Of a stretch of DNA of 64,000 nucleotides, positions 4,516 to 46,608 are shown one piece after another. The stretch is from Austropuccinia psidii (taxonomy: Eukaryota > Basidiomycota > Pucciniomycetes > Pucciniales > Sphaerophragmiaceae): contig JALGQZ010000003.1 in assembly GCA_023105745.1 (NCBI GenBank), positions 41,927,185-41,991,184 of the forward strand, written 5' to 3'. The first letter of the stretch is position 1, and the number at the start of each line of letters is the position of its first letter. The translations under genes and the position numbers were made by a program. The notes below the pieces were generated by a model that had not been told where the DNA came from, did no database searches, and worked only from the letters and a program-made list of their open reading frames with translations.

Positions 4516-6539
4516 TGTAAGGTTTGACTATGAAACAATAAGTAAAAATTACTAATTTATTACTTATTGTACTCTGAATGTCCTTATAAATTGAATAAAT
4601 AAGATTAAAAATATAATAATAATGAATAATTATTATTATTATGGCGTAAAATAATTATATTATTAAATAAATATAATAATATAATTTATATTATGAAAAT
4701 ATAATATAATAAATAAATATATTAATATAAAATAATTAATATATTAAAAAGCTCTTTATTATTGTTACCAACAAATAATAAAGGCGTAAAAAATTGTTTT
4801 TTATTAATAAAAAACAATTAATAACAATAATATTACCAATATTAAAGTTATGAATTAATATAAATACTATTTATATTAATTAAAGAATTATTAAAAGAGT
4901 AATAATAGAGAAATTATTATAATAAGAGAAAATAACCTACTTTTAACACTTAATATAATAATTTTGAATTATTTTACGCCAAAAAATATAAATACAACCT
5001 TTTCAAATTGTATTTACAATAAAAATAAAGAAAATTACAAATTATTCTGGATTTTTATGTGGAAATGAGTTTTTAGAGAGATTTTTAACAAAAACAATTA
5101 AATAAATGATTTAACCACGTCAAAAGAGATGATTATAGCAAGGTGGTCTTTGGTCTTTAATAATATAACAGTTTTATATATAAAGAATAAAGAAATTACC
5201 TTTGATTTAATTGATTTAATGTTTTTGATGCGTCTGAGGGGAAAACAGAGTAAAAAGAGCTCTATTTATAGTAAATACCTCCCTCCTAGAGTCCAACAGG
5301 CTTCTAGTAGACGTGTACTGATCATATCCACTGGAATTGATCAATATTTTAAGGTTTGAGGGTGATTACATCATGATCAAACCATATTACATCATTATTG
5401 CACCATTATTTAGAGTTATCACTATAACTCTAAGTGTGATGACATCAGAGGCTTGGCAGAACCCCAAATTTCGTGGATTTTATTAGTTTTAATCATAAAC
5501 TAATAGTATTCACCAATTTTATCACTCTTAAGACTGTTAAACTTAATTTAAGGTTACAGTATGTGATCATAACAGCTCAATTTAAGCTCAAACTTTGATC
5601 CTCAATAACTTTTAAGGTTTTCACGCTACAGCAATTCAGAGAGTGAATTCTGATAGCCTGACATAACCTTATTATGCTGCCAAGAGCTTTTCATTACATC
5701 ATCAAAACTCTAATTTTGATGATTTTTCTTGTAACTCATCTTTTCTGTCGAAATTCAATATTTTAAACTTCAAACCTTGATTTCAGGGGGTTATACCCTG
5801 AATTTAATAATAAAAATTACATCATTCTTCACGAATGAACTAGTAGAATCCAACTGTGTATTTTTTTTAAGTTTGGAGCACTTTCACAACAAAGTGGTCA
5901 ACAGCTCTGTTGATTTTTATCAATATTTCATCATAGGTTTTAACCTTGTTTATAACTTGTAAAATAAAGTTCATATCTGTGTTCTTACAGTAATTACGTG
6001 GTAACTTTATTTTTGGTTCATCATTCTATCATGTATATTTTAGAAGATATTAGCTATGATCACTGAATATATGCGTTGACCAAAAAAGTGCATATATTCA
6101 GGATAATTCCTTAAGTATTGATTTTGGGAATTAGCTTATTAATTTTTTTATATGTGGATTTTTGTGGGGAATCCACTGGTACAATTTATTTCACATGTTG
6201 TTTCATTAGTTTCTGAGATACATAAGGTTTTATGGTTTTTATAAGGTATTATACCTTATAATTCCTTAAATATTGACTTTACAGATATGCCATAAAAGTG
6301 GTATATGTGTATTTTTCCATGGGGAATCCAATGGTATAATTTATTTCACATGTTCATTCATTGGTTTTTAAGTTAAACCAATTTTAGTACCAATTTATGG
6401 TATTTTTTGTATATTTGAGTAATTATTTTTAGTGTATAATTATTCTAATTAATTTTAATATAATTATATTAAAGGTATAATTATTATTAATCCTTTTTGT
6501 GACCTTATTGGATATGTGGTCATATCTCAAAGGCTCACA
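4516..6539 (-). repeat. Element B 3' LTR
   Basis: Pairs with 13175-15199 almost base for base. On the plus strand its first 600 bp are extremely AT-rich. CTATAAATAG (minus) at 5262-5271 is a TATA box. Two short perfect inverted repeats are visible: AGAGTTAT/ATAACTCT (5412-5431) and ATCATCAAAA/TTTTGATGAT (about 5698-5723). Confidence 0.95.
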
Positions 6540-6556
6540 TTCCCTACCACCAAAAA
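6540..6556 (-). promoter_or_regulatory. Polypurine tract of element B
   Basis: On the minus strand the run TTTTTTTGGTGGTAGGGAA lies directly upstream of the 3' LTR start TGTGAGCC. Confidence 0.7.
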
Positions 6557-6657
6557 AAGATTGTACCACAATCTGATATATGTGATTAGGGTATCATCCA
6601 CTGTCCTACCTCTTCAATAGACTTTGTTAGTCTTGAAGCTCAATAATGCTTAACTTT

Positions 6658-11346: not shown

Positions 11347-12455
11347 TCTTGCTTCATCACTTTCTCTACATGGTCCAAAAGTAATTTTTGGTGTGATGAA
11401 GTCTTTTCTTCAAATTTTTCTACATAAATACTTAATTTATTCAATTTTTCTGTAAGATTGTCAATACTCACATCATAATTGATTGTCAAAGTCTTATCTT
11501 TGATATCTTTTATGTATTTATACAATTCTTGTTGTCCTTGTATTAATTTTTGAGTATTGTCAATTAAATTTTTTGGTTTATTATTTTCAAAAATAAACTT
11601 AATGTTGTCAATTTCTTTCTTGTTTTGTACAACAATTTTTGTTAAAGAAGATGAATTGTTATTTATTTCTTGTAGTGATAATAAACTGTCTTTAATTTCT
11701 TTTAGAGGTAATATACTATTTTTAATTTCTGTTAAAGTATTTACAACATCTTTGGACAAGGTTATTTCTTTGGGAAATGAGGTTGTCTCATTCTTTGCTC
11801 TTCCTTGTCCTTGAATTCCATCAAGGTTCTGGCCATGTTGAAGACATTGTCCATGGCATCCTTTTGGATTCTTGGGATTCTGTAGCTTGGGGAATATGGT
11901 TTCCTCCAATGCTTTTTCTTGTTCTTCTTCCCTTCTTGGGGAAGTGGGTTGGCTTGAGGCTTGCTGGTAGAAGCTACTGGGGCTTCTTCCTTGGTTGCCT
12001 CTCTCTTTTTGGCATGATAATCCTTGATTTTTTTGATTTGAGGTTTGGATGACAGTGGATTCCATCCATTGGAGTATTTCACTATCTCCTCCTCTTTGAG
12101 GAACTTTTTCAGGATGTGCCAGGAGTTCATCACTCCTTGGTGTATTTGAGGCAGCATTTCCCAGTCTTTGTCCTTGTATACTGTGTAATACTGCTTGTAC
12201 TTGCTCATGTAGATGTCTATCTGAGCCCTCTGAATGTGATTTGTACCTGTTTGAGTTACTCATACTTAGTTCCAATTCAGGCTCAGATATCATGGGCATT
12301 TCTGGGACTTGCCTTTGGGATAAGGCACTTCCTTGTGTGGATTCTGTTCCACTGGGGATATTGCCCTTTCTTTTCCCTTTTGAGGGATCAATTCTACTTC
12401 TGAGTCCAGCTCCATCTGATTGGATGGAGTATTGGGAACCTCTTCTGGTAGTCAT
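11337..12455 (-). CDS. Element B frame-a ORF: disordered leader domain and coiled coil preceding Gag
   Basis: This is a 372-codon frame starting at the first ATG of the leader (12455-12453). The N-terminal 200 residues are Gln/Ser/Pro/Arg-rich and look disordered. The C-terminal 160 are Lys/Glu/Ile/Leu-rich with coiled-coil character, like the corresponding part of D and E. Its beginning ([10 protein letters not shown]) resembles that of the D/E frame-a ORF (MPSTRSGASY). The start ATG lies inside a predicted intron, 11 nt before its 3' splice site, so only intron-retaining RNA would encode it. Residues from about 82 onward overlap ORF1 in another frame. It ends in TGA within a 10-nt overlap with Gag-Pol; in D/E the equivalent region is in frame with Gag-Pol. 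Confidence 0.7.
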
Positions 12456-12670
12456 AATTAAAAAATAAAAGTATTTTAGAATAAAATTCTTTTATGGCAA
12501 TTTTAAAAAGAGGTGCTCACCTTCAGAGTCTTGAATGGTGGGCCCTGGAAAGTCTAATTTCTTAGCTTTCTTTCTTTTGGTGATAACTGGTGTTGGAGAA
12601 CTTTGACAAGTTTCTTCCACCAATCTCTCAACAGTAGCTTGGTTGTCTTCTGTTGGGTTATCTTCAAACA
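11762..12670 (-). CDS. Element B ORF1: conserved accessory protein from spliced RNA (predicted)
   Basis: Predicted exons on the minus strand are 12670-12521, 12444-12313 and 12246-11762, preceded by an A from a leader exon that would complete the start codon. The total is 768 nt, a multiple of three, for about 255 residues. The last exon carries SNGWNP and a C-terminal block ([15 protein letters not shown]) almost identical to ORF1 of D/E. The intron at 12445-12520 is GTGAGC...CAG. The second, 12247-12312, must be a GC-AG intron (AAG|GCAAGT); without it the frame has stops, so this copy is less certain than A or D. The function is unknown. The sequence is basic, with no signal peptide or membrane segment. 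The leader-intron donor could not be fixed in B. Confidence 0.55.
12445..12520 (-). other. Element B intron containing the frame-a start codon
   Basis: A 76-nt interval with donor GAAG|GTGAGC and acceptor CTACCAG|AAG. The ATG of the frame-a ORF is at 12455-12453, 11 nt from the acceptor. Splicing joins upstream frame ..SEG.. to frame b. Introns at the same place and with the same arrangement occur in A and D/E. Confidence 0.6.
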
Positions 12671-13157
12671 CTAAAAAAAGACAAATAAATATAAGTCTTT
12701 TTATAATAAGTGTTATTTTTGGCAAGATATGGCAATTTTCCACGTAGAAATTGCTTTTATATCTTAAAAAATGAAATAAATAAAGAAATGAATAAAAATG
12801 AATAAAAATAACTTTTTTTATTGGTTTTTAATATTTTTTAATATTTTTTATGTATGTTTTTATTTTTAAAGAATAAAATAAAAAATAAATATTATTCTTA
12901 TAAAATTAAATTATAATAAAAATTATTTTTAATTTATAAATTATCTTTTTTAATCACTAGAGTCACTCAAAGAAAGTTCTTGCAAGTCTAAGGATGTGAA
13001 AAACCACGTGTAAGACAGTACAATTGCTTTCCAAATGCCTCAATAGCTTTTAAAATCAATAAAATATAAAATTATTATATAATTTTATGATTATAAATAT
13101 AATTTATTATGGATAAACCCAAATAGAATCTTTTTAAAGGTCTTTTAAGTAAATATC

Positions 13158-13172
13158 ACAGCCAGGCCCCCA
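13158..13172 (-). promoter_or_regulatory. Primer-binding site of element B
   Basis: Two bases after the 5' LTR the minus strand reads TGGGGGCCTGGCTGTG. It begins with TGG, as expected for pairing with a tRNA 3' CCA end, and is nearly the same in A, D and E. The tRNA was not identified. Confidence 0.65.
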
Positions 13173-13174
13173 AA

Positions 13175-15199
13175 TGTAAGGTTTGACTATGAAACAATAA
13201 GTAAAAATTACTAATTTATTACTTATTGTACTCTGAATGTCCTTATAAATTGAATAAATAAGATTAAAAATATAATAATAATGAATAATTATTATTATTA
13301 TGGCGTAAAATAATTATATTATTAAATAAATATAATAATATAATTTATATTATGAAAATATAATATAATAAATAAATATATTAATATAAAATAATTAATA
13401 TATTAAAAAGCTCTTTATTATTGTTACCAACAAATAATAAAGGCGTAAAAAATTGTTTTTTATTAATAAAAAACAATTAATAACAATAATATTACCAATA
13501 TTAAAGTTATGAATTAATATAAATACTATTTATATTAATTAAAGAATTATTAAAAGAGTAATAATAGAGAAATTATTATAATAAGAGAAAATAACCTACT
13601 TTTAACACTTAATATAATAATTTTGAATTATTTTACGCCAAAAAATATAAATACAACCTTTTCAAATTGTATTTACAATAAAAATAAAGAAAATTACAAA
13701 TTATTCTGGATTTTTATGTGGAAATGAGTTTTTAGAGAGATTTTTAACAAAAACAATTAAATAAATGATTTAACCACGTCAAAAGAGATGATTATAGCAA
13801 GGTGGTCTTTGGTCTTTAATAATATAACAGTTTTATATATAAAGAATAAAGAAATTACCTTTGATTTAATTGATTTAATGTTTTTGATGCGTCTGAGGGG
13901 AAAACAGAGTAAAAAGAGCTCTATTTATAGTAAATACCTCCCTCCTAGAGTCCAACAGGCTTCTAGTAGACGTGTACTGATCATATCCACTGGAATTGAT
14001 CAATATTTTAAGGTTTGAGGGTGATTACATCATGATCAAACCATATTACATCATTATTGCACCATTATTTAGAGTTATCACTATAACTCTAAGTGTGATG
14101 ACATCAGAGGCTTGGCAGAACCCCAAATTTCGTGGATTTTATTAGTTTTAATCATAAACTAATAGTATTCACCAATTTTATCACTCTTAAGACTGTTAAA
14201 CTTAATTTAAGGTTACAGTATGTGATCATAACAGCTCAATTTAAGCTCAAACTTTGATCCTCAATAACTTTTAAGGTTTTCACGCTACAGCAATTCAGAG
14301 AGTGAATTCTGATAGCCTGACATAACCTTATTATGCTGCCAAGAGCTTTTCATTACATCATCAAAACTCTAATTTTGATGATTTTTCTTGTAACTCATCT
14401 TTTCTGTCGAAATTCAATATTTTAAACTTCAAACCTTGATTTCAGGGGGTTATACCCTGAATTTAATAATAAAAATTACATCATTCTTCACGAATGAACT
14501 AGTAGAATCCAACTGTGTATTTTTTTTTAAGTTTGGAGCACTTTCACAACAAAGTGGTCAACAGCTCTGTTGATTTTTATCAATATTTCATCATAGGTTT
14601 TAACCTTGTTTCTAACTTGTAAAATAAAGTTCATATCTGTGTTCTTACAGTAATTACGTGGTAACTTTATTTTTGGTTCATCATTCTATCATGTATATTT
14701 TAGAAGATATTAGCTATGATCACTGAATATATGCGTTGACCAAAAAAGTGCATATATTCAGGATAATTCCTTAAGTATTGATTTTGGGAATTAGCTTATT
14801 AATTTTTTTATATGTGGATTTTTGTGGGGAATCCACTGGTACAATTTATTTCACATGTTGTTTCATTAGTTTCTGAGATAAATAAGGTTTTATGGTTTTT
14901 ATAAGGTATTATACCTTATAATTCCTTAAATATTGACTTTACAGATATGCCATAAAAGTGGTATATGTGTATTTTTCCATGGGGAATCCAATGGTATAAT
15001 TTATTTCACATGTTCATTCATTGGTTTTTAAGTTAAACCAATTTTAGTACCAATTTATGGTATTTTTTGTATATTTGAGTAATTATTTTTAGTGTATAAT
15101 TATTCTAATTAATTTTAATATAATTATATTAAAGGTATAATTATTATTAATCCTTTTTGTGACCTTATTGGATATGTGGTCATATCTCAAAGGCTCACA
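13175..15199 (-). repeat. Element B 5' LTR
   Basis: Matches 4516-6539 with about three differences. It is flanked on the right by GGGTT (15200-15204), the second target duplication. On the minus strand transcription would run from the TATA box at 13921-13930 into the interior. Confidence 0.95.
13921..13930 (-). promoter_or_regulatory. TATA box of element B 5' LTR
   Basis: The minus strand reads CTATAAATAG in a locally GC-richer stretch. The start site would be expected around 13890-13900, consistent with the ATG-free region starting here. Confidence 0.65.
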
Positions 15200-18991: not shown

Positions 18992-19913
18992 TGAGGCTTG
19001 AGTTTTTTCTCATCCTCTCTTGGGCAGCTGCAAATTCTGCAGCCTGCTTTGCAGATTGCTCAGCATATTGGGACATTTGCAACCACAGTGTGTCACTGTT
19101 GATGTTGCTCTCAGATGTGATAATGTTATTTTCACTCTGAGTGGGGGTAATGTTTCTATTACTAGGACTACTGATTCTAGAGTGGTTTACAACTACTTCT
19201 GGTTCTTGTGTACTTCTTTTACCAAATCTAACAGCTTCTGGATCATGGGGTGTGACTCTTTCCTCCTCTGGTTGAAGGAGGCTTTGTTCTTGCCCTTGTT
19301 GCCTTGTCTTCTCCTGGAAACTTCCTGGAATTGTGAAGAATGGTGACTCTTGGCCACTGATCTGCTGGTTTCTGAATGGTTTGAAGCCACTGGAGAGCTG
19401 ATTTGGCTTGCTCCTTGTGAACCTGAAGGAATCTGAGTAGGCCCTGTCTGGGTTAACTGTTCTTCTATAGCTTGGATAGTGGCTTGGTTCTCCCTTATCC
19501 TCTGTGCCCTTGCCTCCAGGAGTCTGTGCTGCCTGGTAGGGTTCCAACCCTTGGTGATTACCATAAGGTCCTTGAAGTCTATCTCTTTGAGACAGATCTT
19601 CTGGCAACTTGATCCCAGTTCTGCCCAGTGAGTTGCTAGGTTGAACCTCTTGTTGTCCATGCTCCATTGAAACAAATCTTTGAGGAGTTGGTGGATTTGA
19701 AGAACTTGATCCATATCCTTCCAGTCCTCTGGTTTGAGGTTTCTGTTGAATTGGAGTGTGAATGGCAAGGTTGATATTATCTCCCTCATTGTTTTGCCAT
19801 CCACCACTGTGTCCAATGTGTCTTCTTTCAGGTCTTCTGGTTCTAGACATTCCTGCTCTATCCTCTGGCTGGTTCCTTTGGAAGCCAAGGTCTCTGAGGT
19901 ATGCAGGGGACAT
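18975..19913 (-). CDS. Element A frame-a ORF: disordered N-terminal domain preceding Gag
   Basis: A 312-codon frame opens at ATG 19913, which lies inside a predicted intron 20 nt before its 3' splice site. The product is Gln/Ser/Pro/Arg-rich and low complexity. Near its end it has an Ala/Gln/Glu-rich helical stretch (QYAEQSAKQAAEFAAAQERM) that probably continues into the Gag frame starting at 18991 with a 17-nt overlap. Most of it overlaps ORF1 in a different frame. Remaining open for 300 codons opposite another open frame suggests selection on both, but this copy is decayed downstream. Confidence 0.6.
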   Translation of the reverse strand: MSPAYLRDLGFQRNQPEDRAGMSRTRRPERRHIGHSGGWQNNEGDNINLAIHTPIQQKPQTRGLEGYGSSSSNPPTPQRFVSMEHGQQEVQPSNSLGRTGIKLPEDLSQRDRLQGPYGNHQGLEPYQAAQTPGGKGTEDKGEPSHYPSYRRTVNPDRAYSDSFRFTRSKPNQLSSGFKPFRNQQISGQESPFFTIPGSFQEKTRQQGQEQSLLQPEEERVTPHDPEAVRFGKRSTQEPEVVVNHSRISSPSNRNITPTQSENNIITSESNINSDTLWLQMSQYAEQSAKQAAEFAAAQERMRKNSSLIGADS

Positions 19914-20261
19914 ATCAGTGTTTGCAAGCAGTCAAAAACTTTATGTTCTTAGGGTATTTACCTTTGACTGTGCCTTGTACAAATTTGTTATCTGCTGATT
20001 TGGGCAGTTTGCCTTTGGAGGTTACAACTGGGTTAATAATTGTAATCTTCCCTGTACAAGTGGTTAAGGTTGGTTTACCTTGTATTGAAGCAGAGTTTCG
20101 TGGTTTTCTACTCCTCTGAGTGGCTATTGGTATCCACTTCTTGGCTGTAATGGGGCCTTCACTAAGCCTTTTTCCTTTACCCTTGCTGCCCTCTGGTTCT
20201 GAGGGTGTCACTGGTGTGTTGGCCTGTGACTGGGTTTCAAGTGGGATGTAGTTTTCTTCCA
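19193..20261 (-). CDS. Element A ORF1: conserved accessory protein from spliced RNA (predicted)
   Basis: Predicted exons are 20261-19962 and 19893-19193, plus a single A (20810) from the leader exon. The total is 1002 nt, exactly 334 codons including the stop. The start codon would be made by splicing (..ACAA|TGGAAGAAAAC). Exon 1 encodes a basic, Ser/Pro/Lys-rich segment. Exon 2 holds an acidic start and a helix-rich body (NRNLKPEDWKDMDQVLQIHQ), then ITKGWNP, which matches SNGWNP and LNGWHP in the ORF1 of B and D/E. A charged C-terminus follows (RRRQGNKGKNKASFNQRRK). Family and function are unknown; a nucleic-acid-binding or Gag-like role is only a guess. Confidence 0.65.
19894..19961 (-). 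other. Element A intron 2 (contains the frame-a start codon)
   Basis: A 68-nt interval with donor CAAAG|GTAAAT and acceptor ACCTCAG|AGACC. Removing it joins ..GTVK to ETLASKG.. in frame b. Retaining it supplies the ATG at 19913-19911. The donor and acceptor are still recognisable in the decayed copy at 49670-49740. Confidence 0.65.
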
Positions 20262-20809
20262 CTGAATCAAAACAGGAAAAAGAGGGCTTATGTCAGTTAA
20301 GACTTCTTAAAAGGCTGGTTTTGCACGTCTAAGAATGGCCTCTGGGCTTGTATATTATTACAGTATGCCCTTGTATAATGACAGTGTAATTGAATTAACA
20401 ATTTCACGTCAAAAATACAGCTTATGGTGTCCTGTCACACTGTTTGTGTGTCAGTATCCCTCAGATACACTTGTGGTTTGCAAGTGTATTCTGTAAAAGT
20501 GGTTTGTATACAAGTGTTATTGAATTAACAATACACTTGACCACGCCTCAACTGATGGTGTTTTAGTCAGAGGTGTCCTTATTCAGTCAAGAATACAGGA
20601 CTTTATTAGTGGCTTATGTGTTTTTATATGCAAAACACGCCAAAAATAATAAATTACTGTGGGTGTTAACCACGTAAAAAATACTCTTATATTATGATTA
20701 TATAAAAAAAAGGTAAAAATATATAAAATATATATATTTAAATAGAAATTACGCCTAAAAAAGGATAAAACAATGTGTTAATAAGTCATAAAAAAGAGAA
20801 AAGACTTAC
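20262..20809 (-). other. Element A intron 1 in the leader
   Basis: Donor TTACAA|GTAAGT at 20809 and acceptor TTGATTCAG|TGG at 20262. The interval is 548 nt. Joining gives ACAA|TGG, which creates an ATG exactly in frame with ORF1 exon 1. Confidence 0.55.
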
Positions 20810-32656: not shown

Positions 32657-33090
32657 CATCAGCCTGTGACTCAAATCAAGATCACAAGCATGACATCAAA
32701 TACCATTAACCAATGATTTAGAAAAATTTCCACTAAAGTTAGAATGATACAAAATGGTTCATAAAAGGAGTTTCAATAAATAGTAAAGTGGCCTTTTTTC
32801 AATGATATAACTCTCATAACCATAGGACAAGGAATGACAGATTTATTCCTGCTCAAACAAAGAGCTAATCATAACCCTTAATCACCTCTCACCTAAAATC
32901 CAAAGAAAGAGGCACAGGGCCAACAAATGGGTTTTCAAATTGATGCCCTCAGTAAGAGTTATCCAATGGTACAAGAAAAACTAATCTAGAATCAAAACTA
33001 CAGAATTTATAGCTAAAATTATGCCAAATAAGGGTGAATAAATTCTTCAACTCTCATATAACTTTTACAGTTTTAGTGTGATACACCTAA
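32657..33090 (+). repeat. A-type LTR fragment left of the D/E composite
   Basis: Begins CATCAGCCTGTGACTCAA (compare TGTCAGCCTGTGACTCAA, the A LTR in reverse complement) and follows that LTR to TTTTAGTGTGATAC, where the composite starts. The sequence right of the composite starts about 150 bp earlier in the same LTR, so the two flanks overlap and are not one interrupted copy. Confidence 0.7.
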
Positions 33091-34927
33091 TGTAAGGTGT
33101 GGATATGAAACTTTGATAAAAAATCAAGTACTTTTCCTGTCCTCAAAATTTGTATAAGGTAAAATTCAGTTAAAAATAGTATGAAATATTATTTTTAAGA
33201 GAAAACATGCCAATTTTATTGTTTATAACTTTATTAGTATAAAACAATAATATTATAAAAATTTATTGTTTTACCAACAATAAAGGTTTATCCAAAAAAT
33301 ACTCTACAAGAGATATTTTAAGGCTACAAAAGAAATTTCTTCAAGAGCAATTTCAATTGGAATTAATTGAGCAAAGAACTGCAAGCAATTAATTAAAGAA
33401 CAAAGTCTTTAAAAAGAATATTAAAGAGAAAACACGCCCAAAAGTGACCAGAGTGAATTTGGAAACAAAGTGACAAAGTTTACAGTGATGAAAGATGCTT
33501 TAATTCACTTTTGGGGTGGTTCAGGGGTAAAAATGATTATAAGAGTTACAAACAATGATTATAATGATTTTTTCACGTGGTTAAAAGGATTAAAATGATT
33601 TAAAAATGGTGGTTGGAATCTTTGATTGATTGGTTTAACAGTGTTTAAACTAATTAATAAAAGGAAAAGATTCTAACATGAAGAAAAAAGTGGGGCAAAG
33701 AAGACATTCTTTTATAGCCATCAATTCTCTTACTCCAAAAGTAAATTTTACTCTTGTCAGTTGTGAAAAACAGTATGACAACAGAAAAGCCAATTATGGC
33801 ATCATTGAACCCTGGTTTAGACCAAAAAGGGCTGGTTTAAGCCATTTCTAGCCATTTCTAGCCATTTTAGACCCTTAAATCAGCCATTACTATAGCAATA
33901 CCAGGCCTAGAGCCTTCAAAACACGTCAGAATGTGTGTCAGAGGCGTAGAAACCAGTTAAAACTGGTTTTATTATGATTGTTTTATCTTAAGGGTAGTTT
34001 TACCCTCTTGGCAACAGCTAAAACTACCCCAGTTGGTATCAAAACCTCATCATTAATTGAGTCCACAGACCCTGTAACTCAATTCCAGGCCAAAATTGAT
34101 GAACTTTTGCGTGAATTTTGACATCCCACGCCTGTCAGCAAGGATTTTGGGGGTCTAGCTCTCCCTTAGAGCTGGAGTTCTTTTTCCTCCCCAAATTTAA
34201 TCTTTCCAATTTATTTTCCCTTTAATTTCTCATCATGTATTATACTTATAATTTAAATATGTAATTCAATTCAATTGTACAGTAAAATACAGTAATAATT
34301 GACACGTCATATGTAAATCAAAGTTCACTTATGTAATACACGCGCACATTTTGACATTTCAATTGAATTCAATTGAAAATACTTCAATTCCTCATAACTT
34401 CTAAACTAAACACAACACCTCAATTTTAACACAAAAATTGATGGTTAACACCACATGTGGTGTGAATTAAATTAAGTTTTTGAGGATTTTCAACTTTTGT
34501 ATTGAAAATACTAAAAACTTTATTTAAGCTTATTTAGAGTTGAGCTACAAGAATTTCACTCAGAGGTGACCCCACCTGATTTTTTATGAGGAATCCAATG
34601 GTGAAATAATTTTTATGTATTTATTTATTGGATAAAAAGTTATAATAATTTTTATTTAACTTTTTTCCAAATTTATTTATTTTTTCACAATTTTGTTAAA
34701 ATTTCATTTTTACTTAATTTTTTCAAGTATAAATGCAATTTTATACTTACAAAATTTAATGTATTTTTATTTTTAAATTGTAATTAATTTTTTATTTTCA
34801 TATAATTTTATATTTATATTTTGATTTTTATTTTAATAATATAAATAAGTTTATTTTATTTATATTAATATGTTATTTTTTATATTTGTGGTCTTTTGGG
34901 TATATGAAATTCCCTCTAAGGCTCACA
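33091..34927 (-). repeat. LTR L1 (3' LTR of unit D)
   Basis: 1837 bp, TGTAAGGTGTGG to AGGCTCACA. The TATA box TATAAAAG (minus) is at 33709-33716. It contains a 22-bp perfect palindrome at 34357-34378 (core CAATTGAATTCAATTG) and a 16-bp one at 34448-34463 (ACACCACATGTGGTGT), both upstream of the TATA box. Confidence 0.92.
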
Positions 34928-34940
34928 TTCCCTCCCCCTA
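34928..34940 (-). promoter_or_regulatory. Polypurine tract of unit D
   Basis: Minus-strand AGGGGGAGGGAA abuts the LTR start TGTGAGCC. The same tract occurs in unit E at 40190-40202. Confidence 0.7.
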
Positions 34941-34950
34941 AAAAAGAATA

Positions 34951-36844
34951 TTACTTTGTAATATTGGTGTTTCTAGTGTGTCTGAATCTCCTGAGGAGTT
35001 TGGTAGCTTCTGGTATATCTTTTTCTTCTAACCATTCATCTTCACAAGTTGGGTCACTGTACCTAACAAGGTATTCCCTTACTTTCTTGGTTCTTGATTT
35101 CCTTTCTTTAAGAACTTTGGTAATTTTCTTAGTACCAGATGTCTCAATAGGAAAGTATCTGTCTTTGTTATTATGTAAATCTATCCCATATATGATTAAA
35201 TAGTCGATTCCCAATAAAAATGGGTACTAGAGCAATTTTTCATGACAACCAATTCAACTGTGATTCTCAAATTCCAATTTATGTGTTGGAATATGACATT
35301 GGTCTCAAAGATTCCTAATGCTTTCATTGGGTTACTTGTACTTTTGAATTTTATACCATCAAGTAGGTGAAATCTTCCTTTATCATATGATCCTGTCCAT
35401 ACTTCATCCAAGGCATGTATTAGAGAGTTGTCTTTACAGTATTTGTTCACTAATTGGTATAAGATGCTACAATTGTTATCTTGAATGTAGCTATTTCTGA
35501 CCTCTTCAAAGAAGGTGGTGTTCAAGTCTGTAACACTTATTCCTTCTATTGGGATTTGGTTTTCATAAGTTGTGCCCCTTGAGCTTTTGATAAATCAAGT
35601 TGACTATTGCTCAATTGTGGCAAGTGGGGATAAGATTCCATGATGTCAAAAGTGGCATTGATATTTTCTATATCTTTTGAAGATTCAGAAAATATGGATG
35701 ACTTATCATCTGAATTGTCTTCAATTATGTCATCTTTTTCAACATCAGGTCCCTTTCCAATATTAATTTCATTGATTTCCCCCCTTTTTGGACATGTATT
35801 AGCTAAATGGGTGGTGCTTTGGCAAATATGGCACTTTTTGACTGTATCTGCAGATTTATACCCAACATTATTAGAATTTTCTTTGGGGTTTTTGTCCACA
35901 GAACCTTTCCAAGGTGTATTAAACCTTGTTTCAAGATTCACCCTACTAGAACCAATTTTTGTTCTGGTGGTTACTTCTTCTAATATATTGATAATATCCT
36001 CTGCTGAAGATTGTTCAGTAGTCCTGCTTTTGATAGCATGCTCTAAGTCACCTCCACATTGTCTCAGAATTTTCCTATGGATCATAAATTCTGACATGTC
36101 AGGATATAATGCTGTTAGTCTGTCCTTTTGTTGGCAAAACCATGGTAAAGCTTTGTCTTTATCAGCATTAAATTTGGCAGTTTCAAAGGCTGTTTCAACT
36201 TTAAACCTCCAAGCATCATTTGCCCATTTGCTGATGATTTGGGTTTTCCACCAAGTCCAACTCTGGTGTCCATATGCTTGTCTTAATTTGATGTACCATC
36301 TGTGAGCTGATCTGGTAAACAAGGTGTTAAACCTGGCTGTTACCAATCTGCCTGGTAATTCAAAATCCTCTTTGATCATGTCAATACCTCTAATGAATTC
36401 CATATGGTCATACTCTCCTTCACCACTGAAGTGAGGCCATTCTTTAAGTTTTGGAACTTCTTTCAAGAGTGCTTGGCCCATTGATGGTTCCAAGTTATGA
36501 AAAGAAGTGGATAATTCATTTTTTAATTGTGAATTATCAGGATCCAATACTTGTGGATTTGAAATTCTTATGCCCTCATTTTGATTTAGAGGTGTAGACA
36601 TTCTTGGTAAGGTGTTCAGTATTTGTTCAATGTCATTCATTTTACTGTTGCTGCACCTTTGGGAATTTCTGTATTCATGCTGGAAGCTTTGTATTAAATT
36701 TATTACTTCAATTTTATACATGTCTTCCTTATGTGTCAGTTCTTGCCATAACTCTGTCTGTCTTGTATTATCAGCAGTTACTTGATTCAATTTCATTGAT
36801 AATTTTGATACTTCTTCTTGTGAAGCATCAAAACACTTTTTCAA
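34951..36844 (-). pseudogene. gag: Unit D Gag followed by a scrambled, largely deleted Pol
   Basis: From 36844 a 432-codon frame gives coiled coil, Gag core ([17 protein letters not shown]) and CCHC knuckle ([14 protein letters not shown]) to AQLMKTK. Instead of protease, the sequence then jumps to the linker after RNase H ([15 protein letters not shown] to GRFHLLDGI). It jumps back to the protease C-terminal part ([32 protein letters not shown]) and finally to the chromodomain tail ([16 protein letters not shown] to LRRFRHTRNTNITK). Reverse transcriptase, RNase H and integrase are gone. This unit could at most make Gag and would depend on others to move. Confidence 0.88.
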
Positions 36845-36880
36845 GGCAATGGTATATGTCTTTACTTCAGTAAATGAATT

Positions 36881-37888
36881 TCAAATGTCATCAAGGACTT
36901 TCTTGTTATCTGTTTTGATAATATTTATGGCTTGTTTAATTCTTGTTTCAATTATGTCATCAATATTTAATTTAGAATATTTTTCTGTTAATTCTTTAAT
37001 AATGGCAGATTGTTCATTTATTTTATTAGAAGAATTATCATTATTGGAATTTTTAATTGTCCTTAAAACTTTTTCAAAACACATAAGTGTTTCATTAATT
37101 TGGCACAGACTCAGGTTGTTTGTTTTAATGTTGTTACAAATGGTTTCATTTTTATCAGAAAGATGTTTTTTCACGTCATTTATAGCATTATACAACTCTG
37201 GGATGGAATCAAATATGTCAGAAATCATTTCTGGAACCTTAATCTGGCTTCCTCCTTCTTCTGTAATTCCATCATGGTTCTGGCCATCTGAAATACATTT
37301 TCCATGGCATCCTGCTGAATCTTTGGGATTCTGTAGTCCTGGCTGTAAGGTTTTGGGGCTGGTGCCTTCCCTTTGCCCTTGTTTGGAGTTTGTGGCTGTT
37401 TTTTCACGTTGGAATTGCTGCTGCTGGCCACTGGGGCTGTTTTTGGCACTGGTTTGGGTGGTGGAGGGTTGTTTTTCCTCCATTCTAGTGTCAAAAGCAT
37501 CATGTTTTTCTTCTCCATCAATGGATGCCATCCATTGAGCAATTTGCAAGTGTTGGGATGACCCAAGAATTTTCTTACTGTCAGGTAAGAATTCATCCAA
37601 TTCTTCCACAGGTCTGCAAGGATCTGGTACTCCTTGAATTGAAGTGCATTGTTGTATACACTGTGGCTGGCTTTGTATATGTCCACAGAGGCTTGTTGTG
37701 GCGGTGTCAGCTCTTTTTGAAGGTAAAATGGTATTATCAGCTTCAGAATGACCCATTTTAGTTGTTTGGAAGTCATCAACTGACCCTTTTCCTTCTGTAC
37801 CTGATTGGCCTCTGCCATAATCACGTCTATTACCTTTTTGGGAGCTGCTTGAGGGGTTGTAGCTGGCTCCTGACCTGGTTGAAGGCAT
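36881..37888 (-). CDS. Unit D frame-a ORF: disordered N-terminal domain and coiled coil
   Basis: A 335-codon frame starts at the first ATG of the leader (37888-37886), inside a predicted intron 14 nt before the 3' splice site. Residues 1-220 are Ser/Gln/Lys-rich and disordered (STRSGASYNPSSSSQKG); 220-335 are coiled-coil-like ([19 protein letters not shown]). It ends in TGA at 36881-36883. The same frame continues directly into Gag (unit E has Ser there), so the ancestral product was one Gag-Pol chain beginning at this ATG. ORF1 lies in the +1 frame over about 200 of its codons. Confidence 0.75.
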   Translation of the reverse strand: MPSTRSGASYNPSSSSQKGNRRDYGRGQSGTEGKGSVDDFQTTKMGHSEADNTILPSKRADTATTSLCGHIQSQPQCIQQCTSIQGVPDPCRPVEELDEFLPDSKKILGSSQHLQIAQWMASIDGEEKHDAFDTRMEEKQPSTTQTSAKNSPSGQQQQFQREKTATNSKQGQREGTSPKTLQPGLQNPKDSAGCHGKCISDGQNHDGITEEGGSQIKVPEMISDIFDSIPELYNAINDVKKHLSDKNETICNNIKTNNLSLCQINETLMCFEKVLRTIKNSNNDNSSNKINEQSAIIKELTEKYSKLNIDDIIETRIKQAINIIKTDNKKVLDDI

Positions 37889-38135
37889 AATTATGGTTAA
37901 AAAGGCTTAAAATAGTATTTTTACGTCAAAAACTTACTATTGGCCAAATTTTTAGCTTTCTGAAGGGTATTACTTATGTCCAAGTTAATCAATTCAGAAG
38001 ATATTGGTTCAGGTTGGTTATTTTGAGTCACAATAACAGTACTATTATGATCAGAATTAACAGTACTGGCAGGGATAATGCTGGTTACTGTTGAGGCTGT
38101 TTCAATGTTTTCCTGTCTTACCACGTTGTCAGACA
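37225..38135 (-). CDS. Unit D ORF1: conserved accessory protein from spliced RNA (predicted)
   Basis: Predicted exons are 38135-37938 and 37874-37225 plus a leading A (38213). The sum is 849 nt, exactly 283 codons including the stop. Splicing would form ATAA|TGTCTGAC, giving an ATG in frame. The N-terminal part is Ser/Thr/Asn-rich. The body is helical and partly hydrophobic (KWVILKLIIPFYLQKE), then LNGWHP, a Pro/Lys/Ser linker, and a C-terminal block (YRIPKIQQDAMENVFQMART) nearly shared with element B. Against unit E this frame has about 8 amino-acid differences in 199 codons, while overlapping frame a has about 15, so this frame appears the more constrained. Function is unknown. Confidence 0.68.
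37875..37937 (-). other. Unit D intron 2 (contains the frame-a start codon)
   Basis: A 63-nt interval with donor CCAATA|GTAAGT and acceptor TCAACCAG|GTCAG. Removal joins ..NLAN to SQEPATT.. in frame b. The frame-a ATG at 37888-37886 lies within it. Confidence 0.65.
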
Positions 38136-38212
38136 CTAAAATTAATGAAAAAGCCAATTAATTAAGTAAAAAAAAGGTTATTTCAAAAAAAGAAATAAAA
38201 TATAAGCCTCAC
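38136..38212 (-). other. Unit D intron 1 in the leader
   Basis: Donor TTATAA|GTGAGG and acceptor TTAATTTTAG|TGTC, 77 nt. Joining gives ATAA|TGTCTGAC and so an ATG for ORF1. The same sites exist in unit E (46385-46462). Confidence 0.55.
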
Positions 38213-38344
38213 TTATAATATGAAAAAAAAATATTTTTTATGGATTTTTTTTGGATTATAAGTATTTTTTATGTTTTTAAATTTTTCAATATAAGAAAAA
38301 AAGATTTAAAAAGAGTAAAAAAAATATGTCACAGGTAAAATATC

Positions 38345-38359
38345 ACGGCTGGGCCTCCA
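38345..38359 (-). promoter_or_regulatory. Primer-binding site of unit D
   Basis: After the LTR and TT the minus strand reads TGGAGGCCCAGCCGTGA. This differs from E by one base and is close to the sites of A and B. Confidence 0.6.
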
Positions 38360-38361
38360 AA

Positions 38362-40189
38362 TGTAAGGTGTGGATATGAAACTTTGATAAAAAATCAAGT
38401 ACTTTTCCTGTCCTCAAAATTTGTATAAGGTAAAATTCAGTTAAAAATAGTATGAAATATTATTTTTAAGAGAAAACACGCCAATTTTCTTGTTTATAAC
38501 TTTATTAGTATAAAACAATAATATTATAAAAATTTATTGTTTTACCAACAATAAAGTTTTATCCAAAAAATACTCTACAAGAGATATTTTAAGGCTGCAA
38601 AAGAAATTTCTTCAAGAGCAATTTCAATTGGAATTAATTGAGCAAAGAACTGCAAGCAATTAATTAAAGAACAAAGTCTTTAAAAAGAATATTAAAGAGA
38701 AAACACGCCCAAAAGTGACCAGGGTGAATTTGGAAACAAAGTGACAAAGTTTACAGTGATGAAAGATGCTTTAATTCACTTTTGGGGTGGTTCAGGGGTA
38801 AAAATGATTATAAGAGTTACAAACAATGCTTATAATGATTTTTTCACGTGGTTATAAGGATTAAAATGATTTAAAAGTGGTGGTTGGAATCTTTGATTGA
38901 TTGGTTTAACAGTTTTAAACTAATTAATAAAAGGAAAAGATTCTAACCTGAAGAGAAAAGTGGGGCAAAGAAGACATTCTTTTATAGCCATCAATTCTCT
39001 TACTCCAAAAGTAAAATTTACTCTTTTCAGTCGTGAAAAACAGTCTGACAACAGAAAAGCCAATTATGGCATCATTGAACCCTGGTTTAGACCAAAAAGG
39101 GCAGGTTTAAGCCATTTTTAGCCATTTTAGACCCTTAAATCAGCCATTACTATAGCAATACCAGGCCTAGAGCCTTCAAAACACGTCAGAATGTGTGTCA
39201 GAGGCGTAGAAACCAGTTAAAACTGTTTTTATTATGATTGTTGCATCTTAAGGGTAGTTTTACCCTCTTGGCAACAGCTAAAACTACCCCAGTTGGTATC
39301 AAAACCTCATCATCAATTGAGTCCACAGACCCTGTAACTCAATTCCAGGCCAAAAGTGATGAACTTTTGCGTGAATTGTGACATCCCACGCCTGTCAGCA
39401 AGGATTTTGGGGGTCTAGCTCCCCCTTAGAGCTGGAGTTCCTTTTCCCCCCCAAATTTAATCTTTCCAATTTATTTTTCCTTTAATTCCTCATCATGTAT
39501 TATACTTATAATTTACATATGTAATTCAATTCAATTGTACAGTACAATACAGTAATAATTGACACCTCATATGTAAATCAAAGTTCACTTATGTAATACA
39601 AGCGCACATTTTGACATTTCAATTGAATTCAATTGAAAATACTTCAATTCCTCATAACTTCTAAACTAAACACAACACCTCAATTTTAACACAAAAATTG
39701 ATGGTTAACACCACATGTGGTGTGAATTCAATTAAAGTTTTGAGGATTTTCAACTTTTGTATTGAAAATACTCAAAACTTAATTTAAGCTTATTTAGAGT
39801 TGAGTTACAAGAATTTCACTCAGAGGTGACCCCACCTGATTTTTTATGAGGAATCCAATGGTGAAATAAATTTTATATGTTTATTTATTGGATAAAAAGT
39901 TATAATAAATTTTATTTAACTTTTTTCCAAATTTATTTATTTTTTCACAATTTTGTTAAAATTTTATTTTTACTTAAATTTTTCAAGTATAAATGTAATT
40001 TTATATTTACAAAATTTAATGTATTTTTATTTTTAAATTATAATTAATTTTTTATTTTTTAATATAATTTTATATTTATATTTTGATTTTCACTTTAATA
40101 ATATAAATAAATTTATTTTATTTATATTAATATGTTATTTTTTATATTTGTGGTCTTTTGGGTATATGAAATTACCTCTAAGGCTCACA
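38362..40189 (-). repeat. LTR L2 (shared by units D and E)
   Basis: 1828 bp, TGTAAGGTGTGG to AGGCTCACA. TATA box TATAAAAG (minus) at 38979-38986. Perfect palindromes lie at 39617-39638 and 39708-39723. It is flanked by the D primer site on one side and the E polypurine tract on the other, so it has no target duplication of its own. Confidence 0.92.
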
Positions 40190-40202
40190 TTCCCTCCCCC
40201 TA
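40190..40202 (-). promoter_or_regulatory. Polypurine tract of unit E
   Basis: Minus-strand TAGGGGGAGGGAA directly upstream of L2. Confidence 0.7.
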
Positions 40203-40212
40203 AAAAGGAATA

Positions 40213-43200
40213 TTACTTTGTAATATTGGAGTTTCTAGTGTGTCTGTATCTTCTGAGGAGTTTGGTAGCTTCTGGTATATCTTTTTCTTCTAACCATTCA
40301 TCTTCACAAGTTGGGTCACTGTACCTAACAAGGTATTCCCTTACTTTCTTGGTTCTTAATTTCCTTTCTTTAAGAACTTTGGTAATTTTCTTAGCACCAG
40401 ATGTCTCAATAGGAGGTATAACTTGGGGAATCTTATTCCTCAAGGGAAATTTCTCAGCATCACTAGATTTATATGGCTTTATCAAGCTCACTGGAAATGT
40501 AGGGTGCTTATTGCTAAGTTCTTCAGATAACTCTACTTCAACAGCATTTTCTCCATGGAGGGCCTTAATCACAAAAGGTCCTGCAAAGGAGTCTTTCAAC
40601 TTTTTACATCGTTTGATGTTATTGAAGTTAGTGGTGGATACAAGAACTAGGTCCCCCACTTTGAAATCTGGAGTTGCATGAGATTTATCCCATTTGTCTT
40701 TAGCATATGCAAAAGAGTCCTCCATGCACCTTACTGCATGCTTTCTAGCTTTGTCTAGCATTCCTTTGAAGCTAGCAGCTGTGGGATGTATTTCAATTAA
40801 GTCTTTCCTCAAGGAGTCTTGGGGTAACTTGGGGTTCCATCCTTTTTCTAGAACAGCAGGAGTCTGATTGGTACTAGCATGGATTGATGTTTTATATGCT
40901 AATTCCAGTGCTGGTAACAGAGTACACCAATCATGGGTAAATCCATCACAATCTTTGAATTCAAGGCCATATGCACAAAATCTTCTCACCATGTCCTCTA
41001 AGGTTTGGATCATTCTTTCAGCCAGGCCATCAGTTTGTGGGTGGTAGGCTGTAGAGAAAGACAGTTTAGTGCCAAATAATTGGTGAAGATTTGTCCATAG
41101 TGCTGAAGTGAATTTGGGATCTCTATCACTGATGATATTTGTAAATATCCCAGTTCATGACACTACTCTATTCCATATCAGAAGAGCTGTATCCATGGCT
41201 GTATCATCTTTGTGACATGGTAAAAAGATTGGAGTTTTACTGAATCTGTCCACAATTACTAGGCAAGCATTATAGCTCCTGTCACCTCCTGGTGGTAGGC
41301 CAGTTACCCAATCCATATGGACAATTTCTCAAGGTCTGTTTGGTTCTTGGATTTTCATCATATTTCCAAGTCTTTTGCCAGTGGATTTATTTGCCTTTTG
41401 GCATCTGTCACAGGTTTTGCAATACTCTGCATCATCTTTTTGCCACATTGGCCACCATATGCAGGTCTTCACTTTCTCTCTTGTTCTGTCTTCAGAAAGA
41501 TGTCCTGAAAAGGGACTATCATGGCATTCTTTCAGTACAAGATTGATTAATGACCTGTCTACAACAGTCATGACACATGTGTGCTTGGTTCTGTGGTAAA
41601 TTATACCATCCAGTAGGTGAAATCTTCCTTCATTATAAGATTTTCTCCATACTTCATCCAAGGCATGTATTAGAGAGTTGTCTTTACAGTCTTTGTTAAG
41701 TAATTGACATAAGATGCTACAATTCTTATCTTGAGTGTAACTATTTCTGACTTCTTCAAAGAAGGTGGTGTTCAAGTCTGTAACACTTATTCCTTCTATT
41801 GGAATTTGTGGTGAAGCTTCTTCTGGAACATAAGCAGGATTATCAATGTTATTTGGTAATGGCCATCTGCTTAGTCCATCTGCATTCTTATGAATATTCC
41901 CATCCTTATGAACAATAGTCATATTGCCTCTGTATTCTTGTATGGCTACCTGCCATCTGAGCATGTGTCTGTTAGGTGTTTTCATGTTCAAAAGTGATTT
42001 CACAGCTGTACAATCTGTTATTACTTCAAAAACACATCCCTCTAAGAAATAGTTCAATTTCTCCAAGGCCCAGACAAGGCATAGACATTCCATTTGACTT
42101 GCTCCATATCTGGCTTCAGTTGGTTTGATTTGCCTGGATATGAAACATATTGGTCCTTCTACAGGTTTGTCATTTATGATTTGAACTTGGTGAAGTGCAG
42201 CACCTAGTCCATCCCCTGATGCATCAATATACAGTTTGAAAGGTAATTTAAAGTCTGGCATCAGTAAGAGTGGAGCAGTGGTCAATGCTTCTCTTAGAGA
42301 TTCAAAAGCTTTGACTCTGTCAACAGTCATTTCAAATACTGTGTCTTTGTCACACAACTTATAGAGTGGTCTTGCTATGGATGCAAAGTCTTTAATGTGT
42401 TGCCTGTAATATCCTGCAAAACCCAAGAATGACTGAATTTCCTTCTTATTCTGAGGCATGGGTTTTAACAATACTGCTTCAACTTTGTTTTTATCAATTC
42501 CAAGGGACAAACCAGATACAACATGTCCTAGTGCCTTAAGTTCTTTAAATCCAAAATGACATTTCTTCAAGGAGATTTTCATGTTTACTGATTGGATTTT
42601 TGTCAAAACTCTTGATAATCTGTACATGTGCTCCTCCCAAGTCTTTGAACAGATAATAATGTCATCAATGTAAATGATTAACCATCCCTCTGAGAGTTCT
42701 TCAGGGAAGATTTCATTCATCATTCTTTGGAAGTGTGAAGGTGCATTTTTGATACCAAAGGGCATCCTTAAGTATTCATACACTCCACAATGAACAATAA
42801 TTCTCAAGTATTTTCTTGCTCTTGGTGTTACCACATTTTGATGGAATCCTTTAAGGGCATCCATAGTGGTTATATACACTGCTTGAGATATTTGAGTAAG
42901 GGCAATTTGGATTTTTGGTATTGGGTATCTGTCTGGAACAGTGTAAGTGTTCAGAGCTCTAAAGTCCCCAACCATTCTGGATTTTCCATTATGCCATGCC
43001 ACTATGACTGGTGTAGTTATTTCTACTTCCTCATTGTGGCCTACTTTTCTTATTACACCAAGGTCCAGAAGTTCTTTGATATGAATTTCTAGAGCTTCTC
43101 TTGATTTTGGACTTGCTGGATAAGCAGGTCTTCTTAAGAGTGGTGGATAAGGTCTCTCAATGTTAAGAATGATGTCAACTTCATGACCAATAATTGCTCC

Positions 43201-45201: not shown

Positions 45202-45311
45202 GTCATCAATATTGAATTTAGAATATTTATCTGTTAATTCTTTAATAATGGCAGATTGTTCATTTATTTTAATGTTAGAAGAATTGTCATTTTTAGAATT
45301 TTTAATTGTTC

Positions 45312-46136
45312 TTAAAATTTTTTAAAACACATAAGTGTTTCATTAATTTGGCACAGACTCAGGTTGTTTGTTTTAATGTTGTTACAAATGGTGTCATTTT
45401 TATCAGAAAGATGTTTTTTCACGTCATTTATAGCATTATACAACTCTGGGATGGAATCAAATATGTCAGAAATCATTTCTGGAACCTTAATCTGGCTTCC
45501 TCCTTCTTCTGTAATTCCATCATGGTTCTGGCCATCTGAAATACATTTTCCATGGCATCCTGCTGAATCTTTGGGATTCTGTAGCCCTGGCTGGAAGGTT
45601 TTGGGGCTGGTGCCTTCCCTTTGCCCTTGTTTGGAGTTTGTGGCTGCGTTTTCACGTTGGAATTGCTGCTGCTGGCCACTGGGGCTGTTTTTGGCACTGG
45701 TTTGGGTGGTGGAGGGTTGTTTTTCCTCCATTCTAGTGTCAAAAGCATCATGTTTTTCTTCTCCATCAATGGATGCCATCCATTGAGCAATTTGCAAGTG
45801 TTGGGATGGCCCAAGAATTTTCTTACTGTCAGGTAAGAATTCATGCAGTTTTTCCACAGATCTGCCAGGATCTGGTACTCCTTGTACTGCAGTGCATTGT
45901 TGTAAGCTTTGTGGCTGGCTTTGTATATGTCCACTGAGGCTTCTTGTGGCGGTGTCAGCTCTTTTTGAAGGTAAAATGGTATTATCAGCTTCAGAATGAC
46001 CCATTTTAGTTGTTTGGAAGTCATCAACTGACCCTTTTCCTTCTGTACCTGGTTGGCCTCTGCCATAATCACGTCTATTACCTTTTTGGGAGCTGCTTGA
46101 GGGGTTGTAGCTGGCTCCTGATCTGGTTGAAGGCAT
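45312..46136 (-). pseudogene. Unit E frame-a ORF (N-terminal part of Gag-Pol, frameshifted)
   Basis: A 274-codon equivalent of the unit D frame-a ORF, starting at ATG 46136. It ends early because AAAATTTTTTAAAAC lacks a base that D has (compare AAAACTTTTTCAAAAC). The start codon again lies in an intron (46123-46186). Confidence 0.75.
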
Positions 46137-46384
46137 AATTATGGTTAAAAAGGCTTAAAATAGTATTTTTACGTCAAAAAACTTACTATTGGCCAAATTT
46201 TTAGCTTTCTGAAGGGTATTACTTATGTCCAAGTTAATTAATTCAGAAGATATTGGTTCAGGCTGGTTATTTTGAGTCACAATAACAGTGCTATTATGAT
46301 CAGAATTGACAGTACTGGCAGGGATAATGCTGGTTACTGTTGAGGCTGTTTCAATGTTTTCTTGTCTTACCACATTGTCAGACA
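45473..46384 (-). CDS. Unit E ORF1: conserved accessory protein from spliced RNA (predicted)
   Basis: Exons 46384-46187 and 46122-45473 plus a leading A (46463) sum to 849 nt, the same as unit D. The frame is fully open with the LNGWHP motif and the YRIPKIQQDAMENVF block. ORF1 is intact although both overlapping frame-a and Gag-Pol are broken in this copy. An out-of-frame ATG at 46373-46375 just inside exon 1 is a fresh CpG-type change. Confidence 0.65.
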
Positions 46385-46591
46385 CTAAAATTAATGAAAA
46401 AGCCAATTAATTAAGTAAAAAAAGGATATTTCAAAAAAAAGAAATAAAAATTTAAGCCTCACTTATAATATGAAAAAAATTATTTTTTATGGATTTTTTG
46501 AATTATAAGTATTTTTTATATGTTTTTAAATTTTTCAATATAAGAAAAAAGATTTAAAAAGAGTAAAAAAATATGTCACAGGTAAAATATC

Positions 46592-46606
46592 ACGGCTGGG
46601 CCCCCA
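46592..46606 (-). promoter_or_regulatory. Primer-binding site of unit E
   Basis: After the LTR and TT the minus strand reads TGGGGGCCCAGCCGTGA. Confidence 0.62.
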
Positions 46607-46608
46607 AA

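Follow-up and report, generated by a model that had tools for sequence, protein, structure and literature searches.

A predicted splicing switch at the Gag-Pol start codon of Ty3/gypsy-like retrotransposons in Austropuccinia psidii

We analysed 64,000 nucleotides (nt) of the Austropuccinia psidii genome (contig JALGQZ010000003.1, positions 41,927,185 to 41,991,184; hereafter the window), which contain mainly long terminal repeat (LTR) retrotransposons of Ty3/gypsy-like type on the minus strand. In four copies, named A, B, D and E, the start codon of Gag-Pol lies inside a small predicted intron. The best explanation of this arrangement is probably that a single promoter serves two protein programmes, and that the choice between them is made by keeping or removing the intron that holds the start codon. 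The unspliced transcript would have a leader of about 1-1.5 kb almost without ATG, so that a scanning ribosome would meet the ATG of this intron (intron 2) first and would read from it frame a into Gag-Pol; the same RNA would double as genome. Removal of intron 2, together with an intron 3 in A and in a further family, G, would eliminate the Gag-Pol ATG and join exon 1 to exon 2 in frame b. The product would be ORF1, a basic protein of about 280 amino acids (aa) in D/E whose coding sequence overprints the beginning of gag. The ATG of ORF1 would itself be built, in D/E and perhaps in B, by splicing of an upstream intron 1 (A/GT..AG/TG, the slash marking the splice site). We propose this switch because the splice sites are conserved, exon 1 shows codon periodicity in the spliced frame, stops are avoided in frame a and the leader is poor in ATG. 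We infer from these sequence patterns that spliced and unspliced RNA forms both exist.

Intron 2 and the start of frame a are placed as follows.

37875..37937, minus strand: D intron 2 (GTAAGT..AACCAG, 63 nt, with the Gag-Pol ATG inside, A at 37888)
37886..37888, minus strand: D Gag-Pol start codon (14 nt short of the 3' end of the intron; A at -3; context AATTATG)
36884..37888, minus strand: D frame a, covering the N-terminal Gag region (runs 335 codons up to the nonsense codon of the D copy)
46123..46186, minus strand: E intron 2 (64 nt; A of the Gag ATG at 46136, 14 nt from the end)
12445..12520, minus strand: A intron 2 (GTGAGC..TACCAG, 76 nt; A of the Gag ATG at 12455, 11 nt from the end)
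19894..19961, minus strand: B intron 2 (GTAAAT..CTCAG, 68 nt; A of the Gag ATG at 19913, 20 nt from the end)

A previous sequence-only reading had placed the first ATG of D in a GT-AG intron at 37875..37937, and this interval does hold a single ATG, 14 nt from its end. The intron span of 63-76 nt that it gave agrees with the four lengths listed. Its distances from ATG to 3' splice site (20, 11 and 14 nt for A, B and D/E) are right for D/E, but the values for A and B had been swapped. In A, B, D and E, the open frame upstream of intron 2 joins the downstream frame b once the intron is removed, and stops within the intron interrupt frame b when it is retained. Hence the claim that splicing would delete the ATG and join the exons in frame b fits the frames of all four copies, with the addition that A needs intron 3 as well; the companion claim that retention would lead from the intron ATG through frame a towards Gag-Pol fits them equally. 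Frame a starts at this ATG with MPSTRSG in D and E, MTTRRGS in A and MSPAYLR in B.

The same layout recurs beyond the window. Six of six further A copies have identical intron-2 sites and ATG distance, with an intron length of 85-86 nt. Family G, known from one copy (L065), was found among six 10-kb genome stretches picked without regard to content. Its intron 2 has 63 nt (GTGTGT..TACCAG) and contains two ATGs in one frame, the first 14 nt from the intron end and the other 12 nt upstream of it. Four families (A, B, D/E and G) thus have a common layout in which 11-20 nt separate the ATG from the intron end. A programmed frameshift between exon 1 and exon 2 was rejected: intron lengths vary (63-67 nt in the D/E family, 76-86 nt in A) and stops lie within. 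As a separate observation, the Gag start motif M..TR of D, A and G is encoded across the 3' splice site (ACCAG/; 37875-37888, 12445-12455 and L065), and the first residues of Gag may therefore be set by the splice signal.

The predicted parts of ORF1 are these.

37938..38135, minus strand: D ORF1 exon 1 (198 nt, frame b, after AG/TG)
37225..37874, minus strand: D ORF1 exon 2 with stop (frame b, overlapping gag frame a)
46187..46384, minus strand: E ORF1 exon 1
45473..46122, minus strand: E ORF1 exon 2 with stop
12521..12670, minus strand: A ORF1 exon 1 (150 nt; one translation in 7 of 7 copies)
12313..12444, minus strand: A ORF1 exon 2
12247..12312, minus strand: A proposed intron 3 (GC-AG, AAAG/GCAAGT..AAACAG, 66 nt; takes out frame-b stops)
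11762..12246, minus strand: A ORF1 exon 3 with stop
19962..20261, minus strand: B ORF1 exon 1
19193..19893, minus strand: B ORF1 exon 2 with stop

In the A copy, frame b is open throughout only when intron 3 (12312..12247) is removed too. The G copy has a 63-nt GT-AG intron 3 whose place and phase match those of A. Once introns 2 and 3 are taken out, the ORF1 frames of A and G contain no stop over the stretch covered, and frame a continues open across both introns. The ORF1 proteins of the four families are about 25-39% identical where alignable. No tblastn match links the B ORF1 to that of D/E at E 1e-3, so that the membership of B rests on position, layout and a GW[NH]P motif. The D/E protein has a net charge of +14. 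ORF1 has no Pfam match at the cut-off and no PDB sequence match at E<=10. A structural model of exon 2 consists entirely of helices, with a predicted local distance difference test value (pLDDT) of 66.8 and a predicted template modelling score (pTM) of 0.40, and a fold search of PDB gave nothing significant (best E 0.28). A scan of IMG/VR returned five stretches with the pattern, none of them a relative, and neither of the two matches from a protein search with Gag-Pol reached the N-terminus. Of 529 database matches to ORF1, the 120 best all come from A. psidii MF-1, the assembly of another isolate, as do the 120 highest-ranking of the 2155 that another search gave. In MF-1, 49 of the 120 listed D/E-type gene models span the junction between exons 1 and 2 (exactly as predicted in 32 of the 49), as do 59 of the 120 listed B-type models (43 exactly).

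Genome copies were sampled in several ways. A search with the D ORF1 gave 40331 first-look candidates, of which the best 150 were scored: all have at least 98% identity and 147 are without stop. The best 150 matches to the exon 3 region of the A ORF1 have at least 99% identity, and all are without stop. Thirty loci picked by frame b (sample 1, L002-L031; variation in the overlap is used there with caveat only) include 29 with GTAAGT..AACCAG, at an intron length of 64 nt in 27, 63 nt in one and 65 nt in one. In 28 of these 29 loci, frame a stays open up to where the stretch ends (720 codons), the exception being D. Sample 2 comprises 30 loci found by a gag-only query, hence unselected for ORF1 or splice sites. 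The acceptor anchor was present in 28 of them, 27 of which have the GTAAGT donor. Ten of the 27 have no stop in frame a up to where the stretch ends, and all ten keep the intron-2 sites, the ATG and an exon-2 frame b of 210-216 aa. A joint alignment placed 57 of the 60 loci, three being unplaceable; its 57 rows are 56 distinct copies, as D occurs twice. In intron 2, the GTAA donor, the ATG and the AG are each present in 57 of 57 rows, and the G at +5 and the T at +6 in 56 each.

Variation among the copies points to coding in frame b on both sides of intron 2. The p-values that follow come from tests that treat sites as independent and are too small because the copies are related. In the 27 rows of sample 2, the shared variants of exon 1 fall on frame-b codon positions 1/0/11 (p=9e-5), and all variable sites on 9/7/20 (p=0.016). 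Within the overlap, the counts are 26/23/49 for all variable sites (p=0.002) and 2/4/9 for shared variants (p=0.074). Among seven A copies, only 2 of 148 exon-1 sites vary, both of them third positions, whereas 10% of the sites in the leader do. Because of this selection on exon 1, we reject the exon-2 ATG as sole start of ORF1.

A comparison between families gives a similar picture. Between A and E, nucleotide identity by frame-b codon position is 0.55/0.66/0.37, resembling the control, the capsid-nucleocapsid (CA-NC) part of gag in its own frame (0.63/0.72/0.44), while frame a of the overlap stretch gives 0.42/0.59/0.61. Frame b therefore encodes a protein under constraint, and variation in frame a is freer. 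Even so, frame a stays open. When the frame-b protein was held fixed and its codons were permuted, 6.1-8.4 frame-a stops were expected, and none is seen in D, E, A or B (P 0.0000-0.0004). Run the other way round, the test gave weaker results (P 0.03, 0.04, 0.04 and 0.26).

The leader upstream of intron 2 is nearly devoid of start codons. In D it runs as follows.

37889..38949, minus strand: D leader, from the inferred transcription start to the Gag ATG (no ATG)
38980..38986, minus strand: D TATA-like box (TATAAAA) in the LTR

Upstream of the Gag ATG as far as the TATA box, no ATG occurs in the 1084 nt of D or the 1462 nt of A, where 13.5 and 16.3 would be expected. Transcription is predicted to start near 38949, 13894 and 21151. 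In thirty D-family leaders, counting began immediately past an ATG that lies about 37 nt 3' of the TATA box and is taken to coincide with the transcription start. Of these leaders, 26 have no ATG and four have one. Summed over the set, ATG occurs 4 times and the other orders of the same letters far more often (AGT 440, GAT 185, GTA 390, TAG 217, TGA 609). The LTR upstream of the TATA box in the same 30 copies contains 245 ATG in 11850 nt. Similarly, seven A leaders contain 4 ATG, compared with 61-107 for the other letter orders.

Splicing of a proposed upstream intron might supply the start codon of ORF1.

38136..38212, minus strand: D proposed intron 1 (A/GTGAGG..TTTTAG/TG, 77 nt; removal would give ATG, MSDN...)
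46385..46462, minus strand: E proposed intron 1
20262..20809, minus strand: B proposed intron 1 (TTACAA/GTAAGT..TTCAG/TG; removal would give ATG, MEEN...)

Exon 1 starts directly after AG/TG in D, E, A and B. The D/E donor, A/GTGAGG, stands 77-78 nt upstream of exon 1 in D, E and the majority of loci (74-79 nt over the sample-2 loci where it was found), and the join would read ATG TCT GAC AAC. A/GTGAGGCTTA and AG/TG are each present in 57 of the 57 aligned rows. In B, the donor TTACAA/GTAAGT lies 548 nt upstream of exon 1 and the join would give ATG GAA GAA or GCA; A/GTRAGT and AG/TG are kept in the B copies L063 and L064, making three B copies in all. Gene models starting with MSDN, MSEN and MEEN exist, and their ATGs may be genomic. 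We propose intron 1 for D/E on the basis of these patterns and regard it as plausible for B. The two introns together might amount to an exchange of start codons, in which the genomic RNA would carry only the Gag-Pol ATG, inside an intron, and splicing would delete it while assembling the ORF1 ATG from A and TG; through an action on its own RNA, ORF1 could in turn determine how much of each form is made. We give this full version a little less than an even chance. The B leader near the primer-binding site holds a further possible intron at 20755-20809 (A/GTAAGT..TTTTTTAG/GC, 55 nt) with an ATG inside, and L063 and L064 have a similar donor and acceptor.

A switch is not the only way to account for these data. 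Intron 2 might be removed constitutively, with ORF1 as the true first product; Gag-Pol would then begin, by reinitiation or through a second promoter, at an in-frame ATG further downstream, past the ORF1 stop, and frame a before that ATG would be a by-product. The better conservation of frame b than of frame a in the overlap would agree with this. However, an untranslated frame a would need neither the absence of stops in four copies where 6-8 are expected, nor an intron ATG that is invariant in 57 rows, nor the M..TR.G-like start that recurs in A, D and G, and we consider this alternative improbable. Conversely, splicing of intron 2 might be rare noise, and ORF1 might be made from unspliced RNA by leaky scanning to the exon-2 ATG, with exon 1 as mere leader. 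An in-frame ATG is indeed present in exon 2 and is kept in many of the listed gene models. Such a leader would account neither for the third-position periodicity of exon 1 in frame b (D/E) and its fixed translation (A), nor for the conserved intron-2 sites; in A and G, moreover, frame-b stops are avoided only by intron removal. Leaky scanning is thus very unlikely. Finally, both frames could be defunct relics and the pattern could have arisen by chance in AT-rich sequence, as the interruption of frame a in the D and E copies themselves might suggest. Against this stand the best matches to the A and D ORF1, which are stop-free in 150 and 147 of 150 (although picked by score), the layout common to four families and the 99.85% identity of the A LTRs. 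Since copies picked without regard to ORF1 also show codon periodicity in exon 1, this possibility is nearly excluded and we give it hardly any credence.

Several observations weigh against the proposed switch itself. As regards the loss of splice sites in intact copies, to which the sequence-only reading had drawn attention, the ten copies with frame a open keep theirs, but the 28th sample-2 copy, with an open frame of 1984 aa around the query, has a weakened donor (GTAATT). One sample-1 locus has the donor GTAAGC. The two further B copies, L063 and L064, are both diverged: one is without the Gag ATG and the other without the intron-2 AG. Six of the 27 sample-2 copies, none of them among the ten with frame a open, have an exon-2 frame b that is interrupted or shifted, and in one of those ten, exon 1 is open for 60 codons only before a stop. 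The short exon-2 piece compared among the seven A copies has no third-position excess (2/1/1). The description of the intron codon as the first ATG holds strictly for D and A, but between TATA box and Gag ATG there is one earlier ATG in E (1083 nt, 13.9 expected) and there are three in B (1258 nt, 15.8 expected). In addition, the ATG about 37 nt after the TATA box is present in 28 of 29 related loci, and with an earlier transcription start it would open an upstream frame of 9 codons. As for intron 1, A has several conserved A/GT sites of which none stands out as the donor, and in the single G copy AG/TG is out of frame with exon 1. Among the MF-1 gene models that span the junction, 17 of 49 (D/E) and 16 of 59 (B) deviate from it; the models are predictions and give weak support, because gene predictors favour introns that join frames.

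Several known systems resemble the proposed switch in part. Cer1 of Caenorhabditis elegans, also a Gypsy/Ty3 element, makes Gag-Pol from unspliced RNA and CERV from a spliced mRNA whose exon 4 is out of the gag frame (PMC10309623). The likeness lies in the superfamily, in the unspliced Gag-Pol RNA and in a spliced accessory mRNA, which is predicted here. Unlike CERV, ORF1 is wholly out of the gag frame, sits at the 5' end of gag and would require loss of the gag ATG. Complex retroviruses with Rev or Rex likewise divide Gag-Pol, from unspliced RNA, and a regulator, from multiply spliced RNA (PMC3185809), a split that our sequence data suggest for these elements as well. Here, in contrast, no env-side exons were found, the start-codon intron is about 63-86 nt long and the second protein overprints gag. 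In barley, BARE1 has an alternatively used 104-nt intron at the end of gag, whose splicing creates a stop and yields Gag only (PMC3735527); it shares a small optional intron that alters the product, but neither a second protein nor a start codon in the intron is described in that account. In Arabidopsis EVD, splicing and early polyadenylation give shGAG, from which Gag alone is made (PMC8892269). Its spliced and unspliced forms also differ in coding capacity, and the available text describes no overlapping reading frame.

The major splice donor of retroviruses is located 5' of the gag AUG, and that codon is normally lost when the RNA is spliced. Thus, of the comparison with retroviruses made in the sequence-only reading, the choice by start codon is supported by the patterns above, whereas the loss of the gag AUG by splicing is not itself new. 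For this reason the novelty seems confined to the enclosure of the AUG in a small cassette intron, to the overprinting of gag by ORF1 and, perhaps, to an ORF1 start codon made by splicing of an upstream intron. The statement that no described retrotransposon has this arrangement held up in searches of open-licence PMC articles, which brought up none with the layout; the nearest is Cer1 CERV (PMC10309623). The text of a paper on transposable elements (TEs) of rusts (PMC12210899) has no match to 'splic' or 'gag'. By analogy, ORF1 might regulate export or splicing of the genomic RNA in the manner of Rev or CERV, since a genome that keeps its introns needs such a factor, as has been argued for Cer1 (PMC10309623). 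We offer this function as our best, though rather doubtful, guess.

If the switch is real, members of a superfamily that dominates a gigabase fungal genome use splicing to choose between the start codons of Gag-Pol and an overprinted accessory protein. Fungal retrotransposons would then gain a regulatory layer known from complex retroviruses and Cer1. They would also offer overlapping genes on which selection can be measured across a great many copies, and the nuclear exit of intron-containing element RNA would become testable with existing RNA-seq data, such as PRJEB34084 of the A. psidii genome project (PMC8063080).

The elements are Ty3/gypsy-like LTR retrotransposons, as seen from their paired LTRs and their domain order. 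A (4516-15199) is nested within B (1913-22283), and D and E form a tandem pair (33086-48446) with common LTRs. The long LTR pairs are 99.85% identical in A and 97.8% in B.

4516..6539, minus strand: A 3' LTR (99.85% identity to 13175-15199)
13175..15199, minus strand: A 5' LTR (pairs with the 3' LTR at 4516..6539)

A domain scan of the E Pol, covering reverse transcriptase (RT), RNase H and the integrase zinc domain, found PF00078 (RT), PF17917/PF17919 (RNase H) and PF17921 (integrase zinc domain), which is the gypsy order. At genome loci, uninterrupted frames of up to 1987 aa surround gag. CCHC matches fall below the curated cut-off. The Gag-Pol frame of A is broken near 11.3-11.4 kb despite the near identity of its LTRs. 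The window also holds a degraded B-like copy at 49.6-58 kb and a partial copy at 23-26 kb on the plus strand. The spacing of D and E is 8.25 kb, and genome matches run at about 8.25 kb (contig C2, 6 consecutive) and 8.67 kb (contig C10, 4 consecutive). At the inner LTR end of A, B, D/E and G there is a stretch like TTTGGGGGCCTGGC (about 46600, 13180 and 20860; L065 about 1140), which is likely the primer-binding site.

Gypsy elements of A. psidii have been described before in terms of abundance and bursts, in a genome of slightly more than 1 Gb that is over 90% TE and depleted of CpG (PMC8063080). That account concerns the same superfamily and host, and the portion available does not include splicing or ORF1. 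Across the window, the ratio of observed to expected CpG is 0.09 (174 CpG in 64 kb), and the coding region of A has almost none although A is young. ACGT, GCGT or ACGC make up 103 of the 174 window CpGs, and those in the leaders are often found in RCGTR (e.g. GACGTG, GGCGTG).
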